Assembly: GCA_027343695.1 (NCBI GenBank)
Contig: DAHWKJ010000074.1
Span: 1-64,000 of the forward strand
Length of the DNA stretch: 64,000 nt
From: Sulfobacillus sp.
Lineage (GTDB): Bacteria > Bacillota > Sulfobacillia > Sulfobacillales > Sulfobacillaceae
Direction: 5' to 3'
Shown: positions 11,208 to 18,669 of the stretch, piece by piece
Numbering within the stretch: position 1 is the first letter of the stretch
How the letters are laid out: each line of letters opens with the position of its first letter
The notes under the pieces: generated by a model
Databases searched by the model: none
Told to the model about the DNA's origin: nothing
What the model saw: the letters and a program-made list of their open reading frames with translations, nothing else
Position numbers and translations under genes: made by a program

Positions 11208-15375
<4,168 letters not shown>

Positions 15376-15436: not shown

Positions 15437-15787
15437 CTAATGGATTGTCTCCCCTGGACCGAAATTCATTACCAAGTCGAAATCCGGGAAACTCTGAGGA
15501 TCGCCGCTTCCATGGCCGACAACAATCGCGCCAGTTACCGCGTCTTGAGCGTGAATCCGAGCACTCATGTTATGGCGTGACCAGACCAAAGTGTCCGGTT
15601 CGAGGGGGTCCGATTCGGGAATTCCAAAAGCCCAACTCAAAAGATTCTCGATTTCACTACGCCCTAGTGCCGAATTCTGGACTCGGTACCATACCTCTAA
15701 CTGATCCGCCGAAAAACGCCATCCTTTGATTTTCCCTTGATGTAAAAAGCCCGTACCCGAAGTCGCTTCACGCCAAGACACGACCAT
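15437..15787 (-). CDS. Hypothetical protein (116 residues)
   Basis: I do not recognise this protein. It is soluble, mixed alpha/beta in character and rich in tryptophan (WREA, WRFS, WYRV, LLSWAFG, VWSRHN), with an acidic, glycine-containing C-terminus (GHGSGDPQSFPDF). No signal peptide, metal motif or repeat is visible. The ATG at 15787 is preceded by AGAGAGGTG; a GTG three codons upstream (15796) is the alternative. It has its own extended -10 promoter and ends just before the pcrA promoter. It sits between yerC and pcrA, where Bacillus carries pcrB, but does not resemble that prenyltransferase. Confidence 0.65.
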   Translation of the reverse strand: MVVSWREATSGTGFLHQGKIKGWRFSADQLEVWYRVQNSALGRSEIENLLSWAFGIPESDPLEPDTLVWSRHNMSARIHAQDAVTGAIVVGHGSGDPQSFPDFDLVMNFGPGETIH

Positions 15788-15815
15788 CCACCACACCTCT
15801 CTAATGTACTAAAGT

Positions 15816-15897: not shown

Positions 15898-16194
15898 CTA
15901 TGGGGTGGTTGACGTCATACGATCCAAAACGAGCCGGTATCCATCGGCCCCAAACGTTAACGACCGTTTAACGCGTGAGATAGTTGCCGACGACGCTCCA
16001 GTAATTCGAGCAATGTCTTCGTAGGTTTGACCTTCATCTAACATTTGTGCGACGGCCATCCGTTGAGCAATCGACTGAATTTCCGCTGCCGTGAGAATAT
16101 CTTCCAAGAACTTGTAGGTGTCCTCTACCGTGTTGAGGCTTAATATCGCCCGACACAGCAAGTCTGCCTCACTGCTCCGAAGCTTCGAATTCAT
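15898..16194 (-). CDS. yerC: YerC-like TrpR-family transcriptional regulator
   Basis: A 98-residue helical protein of the YerC/YecD group of the Trp-repressor superfamily. The helix-turn-helix is clear at QTYEDIARITGASSATISRVKRSL (about residues 57-80); the preceding part (LEDILTAAEIQSIAQRMAVAQML) is the dimerising helix bundle. The start at 16194 follows an AGGTGAGGTG ribosome binding site, and a GTG four codons upstream overlaps that site. In B. subtilis the homologue lies upstream of pcrB-pcrA-ligA, so the position is conserved. The regulated genes and any ligand are unknown; the neighbouring purine operon is an untested candidate. Confidence 0.85.
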   Translation of the reverse strand: MNSKLRSSEADLLCRAILSLNTVEDTYKFLEDILTAAEIQSIAQRMAVAQMLDEGQTYEDIARITGASSATISRVKRSLTFGADGYRLVLDRMTSTTP

Positions 16195-16266
16195 AGTGCA
16201 CCTCACCTATCCATTTGATAGGTATTGTGCGCGTCCCGTAGCCGAATTACAAGTTAGTAACTCAGT

Positions 16267-17022
16267 TTAGGCTCCAGAGCCTCCTCCTGAACTTCCCAAT
16301 CCTCCACTACTACCACCAGAAGATCCGCCCGAAGAACTCGAACCCCCACTACTACCACCGGAGGATCCCCCCGAAGAACTCGAACCTCCGCTACTACCAC
16401 CGGAGGATCCGCCAGAAGAACTCGAACCTCCGCTACTCGACGAGCCGCCTGAAGAGCTCGACGACGAGCTAGAGCCGACCATCTTGAGGATGCTCGCCTT
16501 CACCGAAGAATCAATGGCCATCGTGATAGTGGGAGACGCCATAGCCTTTTGTACGTCAGACTCCAGGGTTTTTTGAAACGTTGGACTTGACATCGCCAAC
16601 ATGACGGATTTTTCGAGAGCGGTTTGGCCCATCGGCGTCATAAGACTTTGTTGTAATTGGGTTGTGGAGATGCTTTCGGCGATCACGCGTTGCATCCGGG
16701 GCGTTTCCATTTCATCCCGAACCGCCTTTTGAATCTCCATTGACGGCATCGAGGAGGAACTCGAAGAGCCCCCGGAAGACGACCCTCCGCCCGAACTTGA
16801 ACCACCGGAGCTCGAACCTCCCGAACTGCTGGACCCGCCAGAGCTTGAACCACCGGAGCTTGAACCTCCCGAACCGCTGGACCCGCCAGAGCTACCGCCA
16901 CCATGACTGGTCGCGGTGCTCCCGTGTTGGGGGGAGGGCGCTCCCATCGTAAACGCACATCCACCAAGCATTGAGGCGAGCACACCGCCTGCCACCACTA
17001 ATGCGCCTATCTTCTGTACCAC
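16267..17022 (-). CDS. Ser/Gly-rich lipoprotein with a GerD-like helical core
   Basis: A 251-residue secreted lipoprotein. The signal peptide ends in the lipobox MLGGC, giving lipidation at Cys22. Residues ~40-91 and ~183-251 are low-complexity Ser/Gly linkers. Between them is a compact helical core (92-182) built of repeated units anchored on (S/T)P at residues 108, 130, 147 and 164, for example SSPTFQKTLESDVQKAM. The same proline-anchored helical repeat pattern is typical of the spore germination lipoprotein GerD, so a role in the spore inner membrane or germinosome is possible, but the match is by pattern only. The start is a GTG behind GGAGGTG. In B. subtilis an unrelated-looking lipoprotein, YerB, occupies the same place next to yerC. 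Confidence 0.7.
   Translation of the reverse strand: MVQKIGALVVAGGVLASMLGGCAFTMGAPSPQHGSTATSHGGGSSGGSSGSGGSSSGGSSSGGSSSSGGSSSGGSSSGGGSSSGGSSSSSSMPSMEIQKAVRDEMETPRMQRVIAESISTTQLQQSLMTPMGQTALEKSVMLAMSSPTFQKTLESDVQKAMASPTITMAIDSSVKASILKMVGSSSSSSSSGGSSSSGGSSSSGGSSGGSSGGSSSSGGSSGGSSGGSSSSGGSSGGSSGGLGSSGGGSGA
16322..16436. repeat. 42-bp tandem repeat in the lipoprotein C-terminal tail
   Basis: Two near-identical 42-base units (16322-16363 and 16364-16405) and a partial third unit encode a 14-residue Gly/Ser block. Degenerate extensions continue on both sides. The number of copies could vary between strains. Confidence 0.75.
16796..16891. repeat. 48-bp tandem repeat in the lipoprotein N-terminal linker
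   Basis: Two 48-base units, 16796-16843 and 16844-16891, differ at only a few positions and encode a 16-residue Ser/Gly block just after the lipidated cysteine. Confidence 0.75.
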
Positions 17023-17380
17023 ACCGCACCTCCATGACGTTTGTGGGTAGTGTTACCCGACCATGGAGATTCTAGTACCCGATCACGTGGTATTACCCAC
17101 CCATGATGCCATAATACGGTGCGAGATTTTAAAGACAATCCGGAAGAAAACTGCCGAGTTTATCGTTCTAGTCCAAGGCCGATCATCGAACTTTTCGCCA
17201 CCTTCCTGTTTCATGGCGTCATGGTTTTGTCAGGAAAGGGTGAGCCGCCGCGTGCATCGGGTAGGGTTTTGCGCAACGCGGCGGGACGATGAAACGGTTC
17301 GGGTCGTATCCGCGCTCAGTCATAACGCCGATAGTCACCCGGTGTCCGTTCAACCCTAGGTAAATTTTTAAGAAACTGTT
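17023..17380. promoter_or_regulatory. Intergenic region with repeated GGGTA/TACCC elements
   Basis: This ~360-base region between purD and the lipoprotein gene has no convincing gene: a 98-codon plus-strand frame (17063-17359) lacks a ribosome binding site and recognisable sequence. Close to the lipoprotein start it carries a palindrome GGGTAGTGTTACCC (17045-17058), TACCC at 17076-17080 and GGTATTACCC at 17089-17098. GTGGGTA (17043-17049) and TACCCAC (17094-17100) also form an inverted pair. These may be operator half-sites or non-housekeeping sigma elements controlling the lipoprotein gene; this is inference. Confidence 0.35.
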
Positions 17381-17403: not shown

Positions 17404-18669
17404 TTAGGAGTCACGGTGTTCCAAGGCAATATCCTGGCGATATTGCGTGCCCGGTGCATCAATTTGGCTCATAACCTGATACGCTTGGCGTCTAGCGTTC
17501 GAAACATCGGGTCCAACGCCTACCACCGTTAAGATCCTTCCTCCATTACCTTCTAAAACGCCATCAACTAACCGGGTAGCTCCTTGAAACACTAAACCGT
17601 CTAGATTTTGGGGAATATGAAGCGGTTGTCCTCCTGTGGTAGGATTCGGATAACGCTCATCGGCCAGTACCACCGCGACCGCAGCCTTACCGAAATGGTC
17701 GGCGATCCGGGGTAGCCTGCCTTGGGCTAGTTGCATCCACAGTGCTCCCCAATCTTGTTCCACCATGGGGACGATAACCTCCGTTTCAGGATCCCCCATC
17801 CGGACATTAAACTCGAGAACTTGGGGACCGCTGGCGGTCAGCATTAGTCCTACATAAAGGACCCCTCGGTACAGCATTCGCTCATCACGAAGAAATTGCA
17901 TGACCGGGTCTAGGATTTCTTTATTGATCCGATCCTTGGTTTCGGGGTCGAGGCCCGGGACCGGCCCAAATGCCCCCATGCCGCCGGTATTAGGCGCATC
18001 AGACCGCGCGTTGACTCGTTTATAATCGCGGGTCAACGGCAACCAGGCATACTCGTGACCGTTGGTAAGGACGTGCACCGAAATTTCCTCACCAATCAGG
18101 CACTCTTCCCACAGAATCCCTTCGTCAAAGAGTTCAGGTCGTTCCGTCCACGATTCCGCCACATGCCACGCGGCTTCTCTCGAGTCCACGATCACCACCC
18201 CCTTGCCGCCGGCAAGGCCGCTCTGTTTCATCACATGAGGCCACATGGTTTCCTCCTCAATCCAGGCTTGCAATTGAGCCGGGGTGCGCGCCATCTGTGC
18301 CCGGGCAGTCGGAATATTGTAGCGTCGCATCACTTCCTTAGCGTAGGTTTTACTGCCTTCCAAAGCGGCCGCAGCTTGACTCGGTCCCACAACCCAATGC
18401 CCCTGACTTCTGAGCGCATCGGCCAATCCAGCGACCAGGGGCGCCTCAGGCCCTATAATCACGAGGAGCGGCTCCCGCTTGGCACACCAACTGATCAGTT
18501 CTGGGAGATTCTGATACGCAATGCATTCGGCAAGACCGGCAATCCCGGGATTACCCGGTGCCGCATAGACTTTGCTAAAGTGCTTAGATTCGGTAAGACT
18601 ATAGACCAGAGCGTGTTCTCGGCTCCCCTGGCCCACCACTAAGGCATGTTGCGGTCGCTGCTGATCCAT
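17404..18669 (-). CDS. purD: Phosphoribosylamine-glycine ligase
   Basis: A 421-residue ATP-grasp enzyme joining glycine to phosphoribosylamine to give GAR, step 2 of IMP synthesis. The N-terminus has the nucleotide-binding-like GQGSREHALVYSL, the ATP-grasp part shows KQSGLAGGKGVVI and the metal-site region FNVRMGDPETEVI. It is the last gene of the operon, nine bases after purH, with GGGGGT before the ATG. Length is normal. Confidence 0.97.
   Translation of the reverse strand: MDQQRPQHALVVGQGSREHALVYSLTESKHFSKVYAAPGNPGIAGLAECIAYQNLPELISWCAKREPLLVIIGPEAPLVAGLADALRSQGHWVVGPSQAAAALEGSKTYAKEVMRRYNIPTARAQMARTPAQLQAWIEEETMWPHVMKQSGLAGGKGVVIVDSREAAWHVAESWTERPELFDEGILWEECLIGEEISVHVLTNGHEYAWLPLTRDYKRVNARSDAPNTGGMGAFGPVPGLDPETKDRINKEILDPVMQFLRDERMLYRGVLYVGLMLTASGPQVLEFNVRMGDPETEVIVPMVEQDWGALWMQLAQGRLPRIADHFGKAAVAVVLADERYPNPTTGGQPLHIPQNLDGLVFQGATRLVDGVLEGNGGRILTVVGVGPDVSNARRQAYQVMSQIDAPGTQYRQDIALEHRDS

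Follow-up and report, generated by a model that had tools for sequence, protein, structure and literature searches.

In Bacillus spores, the nutrient sensors are gathered by GerD. This lipoprotein co-localises with the receptors, is required for their clustering and lies near the B subunit (PMC8539644), and it is built as a trimer of intertwined helices (PMC11841064). According to a 2025 review, GerD is absent in Clostridiales, and the type of germinosome that it organizes is most likely absent there as well (PMC11878537). The NCBI taxonomy places Sulfobacillus within Clostridia/Eubacteriales, and literature searches for GerD in Sulfobacillus found nothing relevant. Another spore lipoprotein required for germination, GerS of C. 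difficile, has no reported homology to GerD (PMC4619724).

Here we describe a lipoprotein gene from a 64,000-nucleotide stretch of Sulfobacillus DNA (the window). With GerD, the scaffold of the Bacillales germinosome (PF17898, NF040801, 4o8w), the encoded protein has in common a lipobox Cys followed by a short helix, a chain of amphipathic helices broken by prolines and then a Gly/Ser tail, and a single gene copy in genomes that hold GerA/GerAC receptors. Unlike GerD, it has a shorter core, a long uncharged N-terminal linker and repeats of 17 residues, where those of GerD mostly have 13; because of this repeat length it is not GerD itself. Our preferred reading, held with some reserve, is a divergent GerD-like spore lipoprotein that brings germinant receptors together on the inner membrane of the spore.

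Layout of the lipoprotein and its locus

The original prediction described a lipidated Cys22, a Ser/Gly linker of about 50 residues, a 90-residue core with Pro108, Pro130, Pro147 and Pro164, and a Ser/Gly tail of about 70 residues. This layout proved accurate, the Cys and proline positions being exact (Table 1), and can be regarded as established at the level of sequence. Ser and Gly make up 98% of the linker and 97% of the tail, and neither arm contains Asp, Glu, Lys or Arg. Pro93 is the only further proline of the core; from Pro108 to Pro164 the spacing is 22, 17 and 17 residues. The LGGC22 lipobox, from which lipidation is predicted, is also found in relatives. Since lipobox, core and both linkers are retained in the examined members of the order, and the core shares 75-91% identity with its nearest relatives, the reading frame is not a product of chance. 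The stretch directly at the lipobox LGG-C22 (residues 22-38, CAFTMGAPSPQHGSTAT) had previously been overlooked; its start, C-[SA]-x-[ST]-x-G (CSxSxG-type), reappears in relatives far beyond the order.

Table 1. Features of the lipoprotein gene and its neighbours, in positions of the window
Feature	Position	Strand	Remarks and basis
ligA	11208..13319	(-)	conserved downstream neighbour; Pfam
pcrA helicase	13243..15375	(-)	conserved downstream neighbour; Pfam
yerC (TrpR-related YerC/YecD)	15898..16206	(-)	conserved downstream neighbour; Pfam, NCBIfam
GerD-like lipoprotein gene	16267..17022	(-)	251 aa, GTG start; core matches GerD below cut-offs
Ser/Gly tail, residues 183-251	16270..16476	(-)	charge-free; sequence composition
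GerD-like helical core, residues 92-182	16477..16749	(-)	five helices; profile matches, AlphaFold2
Ser/Gly linker 1, residues 39-91	16750..16908	(-)	free of Asp/Glu/Lys/Arg; sequence composition
Conserved post-Cys stretch, residues 22-38, CAFTMGAPSPQHGST	16909..16959	(-)	sequence, relatives
Signal peptide and lipobox LGGC, predicted lipidated Cys22	16957..17022	(-)	sequence; nearly all examined relatives
Ribosome-binding site GGAGGTG	17027..17033	(-)	read in sequence; GGAGG 6 nt 5' of start
purD	17404..18669	(-)	conserved upstream neighbour; NCBIfam and neighbourhood comparison

AlphaFold2 models the core as five helices (core residues 6-16, 19-38, 41-55, 58-73 and 75-94; pLDDT 76, pTM 0.30), four of which begin exactly at Pro108, Pro130, Pro147 and Pro164. 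A Foldseek search of the PDB with this monomer model returned five matches, all with E >7, so that neither GerD nor any other fold was matched significantly; VIA-align comparison of the model with six chains gave one Z of 2.8. Little can be read from the null result of a monomer fold search here, GerD, its known relative, being made of three intertwined chains.

The gene order purD, lipoprotein gene, yerC-pcrA-ligA is retained across most of the taxonomic order, including on contigs of complete genomes, and stands in place of the Bacilli-type gerD neighbourhood, whose recurrent members we take to be cwlD-mrp-gerD-kbaA. Consensus sequences for sigma F, G, A, E and K gave no signal above Markov shuffles in 28 upstream regions. 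In several genomes, what looks like a GAGTA box seems to coincide partly with the stop codon of purD. Between yerC and pcrA lies an ORF of 119 aa (15437-15796, (-)) with no Pfam or NCBIfam match, whose relatives (46-55% identity) were found in just two genera of the family, its own included.

The original prediction regarded Ser/Gly arms on both sides of a GerD-like core as a new architecture. The long uncharged N-terminal linker is indeed unusual; the tail, by contrast, is already present in most Bacilli GerDs (L075 and L078-L080, though not L076), so arms flanking such a core are not new in kind. One Bacilli GerD even has an additional Gly/Ser insert inside the core. From Cys to core there are 18-72 residues in the clearly parsed members of the order, as against 5-17 in distant members of the class, and by sequence the long first linker and the near-absence of charge appear peculiar to the order. 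Whether the uncharged linkers are an adaptation to acid surroundings can only be guessed.

Similarity of the core to GerD

Searches with the whole protein return a single family in both Pfam (GerD, PF17898, E 4.2e-4, 20.7 bits) and NCBIfam (GerD, NF040801, E 1.7e-4, 21.1 bits), and the core alone matches PF17898 with 25.0 bits (E 1.9e-5). Neither membership cut-off is reached, these being 29.5 bits (Pfam gathering) and 100 bits (NCBIfam equivalog). GerD is likewise matched by 27 of 28 orthologue cores from the order and by all nine distant members, below the cut-offs in those shown. When family profiles were compared with 177,635 PDB sequences, GerD (4o8w) was the clear best match (5.7e-6 and 3.8e-6). 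In the reverse direction, the family profile recovers Bacillus-type GerD from whole genomes (4e-5 in G325, 4e-4 in G199).

Any repeat in which prolines interrupt the helices might be picked up by a model built on this feature, and a pattern-matched control was therefore applied. Against a GerD model made from six Bacilli sequences, the core from the window scores 17.0 bits and the cores of the order 13.8 on average; full shuffles average 1.0 bits and shuffles that preserve the proline and hydrophobic pattern 7.1, with 1.8% of the latter above 15 bits. Pattern thus accounts for roughly half of what a single sequence scores. Proteins with Met-rich, proline-capped repeats of 13 residues were also encountered in several Bacillota families (L086, L087, L089, L090, L092, L096). 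They surpass the Pfam GerD cut-off, for which reason single-sequence E-values alone were distrusted, and some carry a lipobox. Like the Sulfobacillus lipoprotein they consist of proline-capped helical repeats that match the GerD model; they differ in the length and Met-richness of the repeats, and match the lipoprotein family no better than permutations do. Either they are related to GerD or PF17898 picks them up falsely.

The success of these Met-rich proteins, the wide gap between pattern-preserving and full shuffles and the unequal repeat lengths would all be expected if the Sulfobacillus core had acquired proline-capped amphipathic repeats independently and matched GerD by pattern only. 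However, we consider such convergence improbable in view of the profile comparisons. In hhalign, the broad core alignment matches the Bacilli GerD core with a probability of 95% and a score of 50.0, whereas the maximum among 100 permutations preserving prolines and hydrophobic pattern is 35.8 and the Met-rich family reaches 34.2. With relatives from outside the order alone the score is 42.6 (permutations <=34.8), so that two separate alignments beat every permutation as well as the Met-rich family. From lipobox through N-helix and repeats to Gly/Ser tail, the parts also follow each other as in GerD. Full-length distant relatives match Bacilli GerD at 99% from lipobox through Gly tail, signal and tail contributing to this value. 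The order's own profile is shallow and matches GerD less strongly in a direct comparison (54%); it joins its distant relatives at 99.6%, and its link to GerD therefore depends on them.

Kinship with GerD above the pattern-matched null is, as far as sequence can tell, established, and the alignments favour common descent, with the core as a probable remote relative. Of the GerD likeness originally proposed, a remote similarity has stood (4o8w at 4e-6; hhalign 95%, with 50.0 against <=35.8 in the HMM-HMM comparison suggested as its check), while the protein stays under every curated cut-off.

Distribution and link to sporulation

Of the 42 genomes examined from the order, 41 carry the gene, each in one copy, a pattern that we regard as settled single-copy vertical inheritance on the sequences compared. 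Several further families of the class have the gene as well; among relatives that bear a name, Sulfobacillus benefaciens and 'Bacillota bacterium' bins come closest. In its own genome (84% complete) it is the only PF17898 match (E 0.003), leaving no second GerD candidate. This genome encodes Spo0A, SpoIVA and SpoVAC/Eb and, as a search for ger genes had been recommended, it is relevant that four GerA and three GerAC matches were found. In proteins of some other members of the class (L031/L069 in G049, L035 in G053, L050 in G046), the GerD-like stretch follows a hydrophobic segment at the N terminus that has no lipobox; these may be membrane-spanning versions.

The sole exception in the order is genome G036 (97% complete). 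At its pcrA-ligA locus (L148, G036:C9:10000-24000), at least 7 kb lie upstream on the contig and the lipoprotein gene is absent; in its congener G037 the gene adjoins pcrA. SpoIVA, SpoVAC/Eb, GerA and GerAC are also missing from G036, which retains Spo0A, so that the gene was lost together with the sporulation and receptor genes. This is apparently a recent loss of sporulation within a sporulating genus, and on its account the lipoprotein gene tracks sporulation. G047, another member of the class, lacks the gene and the sporulation genes in the same way, and Spo0A too. Presence in strict non-spore-formers, which had been named as evidence against a GerD-like role, was thus not what these relatives showed.

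The association with receptors is looser. GerAC is found in 47 of 48 genomes with the lipoprotein (the exception is 63% complete), and ten of the 61 related genomes hold GerAC while no family member was detected in them; co-occurrence across these 61 genomes is modest (Fisher p 0.028, kinship not removed). In a phylum sample of 299 genomes, the family profile finds a match in 22 (in three cases a GerD or GerD-type gene), and GerAC is present in 21 of the 22 against a background of 247/299 (p 0.08). In no genome of this sample were a strong Bacillus-type GerD and a member of the lipoprotein family found as separate genes.

These distributions bear on two other readings. If the protein served vegetative acidophile cells as a surface lipoprotein with a Ser/Gly spacer, uncharged linkers and a place among housekeeping genes would suit it, but such a protein should hardly vanish in G036 and G047 along with sporulation, nor have relatives in several other Bacillota families whose genomes possess Ger receptors in 21 of 22 cases; we give this reading almost no credence. 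A structural lipoprotein of the spore or its envelope, for example a tether or spacer from membrane to cortex that does not cluster receptors, with or without GerD ancestry, is a more serious contender, though still unlikely. Losses in asporogenous genomes fit any spore protein, G036 and G047 having shed all sporulation genes and not the receptors alone; the ten genomes with GerAC and no detected family member, the housekeeping neighbourhood and the long flexible arms, suited to a tether, point the same way. Against it, GerD is the one known family matched by sequence and profile, and G060 has SpoIVA, SpoVA and GerA yet neither GerAC nor the lipoprotein, detection being weak at that distance.

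Unannotated lipoproteins of the same kind occur in other Bacillota (families f23, f24, f25, f35, f43 and f78; loci L118-L133). They share with the Sulfobacillus protein the core (hhalign 99.4%), the 17-residue repeats, the Gly-rich tail and, in most, a C-x-x-x-x-G type start after the lipobox; members of f35 and f78 have one extra 17-residue repeat. They differ in their short N-terminal spacer, and a common neighbourhood was not found. Nearly all of their genomes have Ger receptors, and Bacillus-type GerD was undetected in those families whose relatives combine lipobox, core and Gly tail. Neighbourhoods of the distant relatives revealed no common germination gene, ORF calling being unsure there (high GC); the sole exception is a YtxC-type sporulation gene that adjoins one GerD-type gene of f74.

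Proposed role and wider meaning

For the GerD-like lipoprotein, the gathering of receptors on the spore inner membrane is the most likely function by analogy. The protein would be exported and, lipidated at Cys22, stay anchored at the outer surface of the (spore inner) membrane, where its core of proline-capped amphipathic helices would self-associate, as the GerD trimer does, and gather Ger-type germinant receptors into a cluster, allowing a faster response to nutrients. The uncharged linker may space the core from the membrane by a contour length estimated at up to ~20 nm, and the tail may extend into the germ-cell-wall/cortex space. Expression in the forespore, trimerisation, clustering of receptors and the role of the linkers are what we infer from these comparisons.

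With GerD currently viewed as absent from such bacteria (PMC11878537), a family of unannotated GerD-like lipoproteins beyond Bacilli is of greater interest than the linkers, and suggests that a gathering device exists in bacteria thought to be without it. It is conceivable, although we put it forward tentatively, that a second and ancient branch of GerD, characterised by 17-residue repeats, extends across both the Sulfobacillus class and other non-Bacilli Bacillota, that receptor-clustering germinosomes are general among spore-formers and no invention of Bacilli, and that the acidophile order added the long uncharged spacers. If these lipoproteins do cluster receptors, the nutrient sensitivity of non-Bacilli spores would become directly testable with the unannotated candidates listed here, and the germinosome scaffold would date from much earlier in Bacillota.
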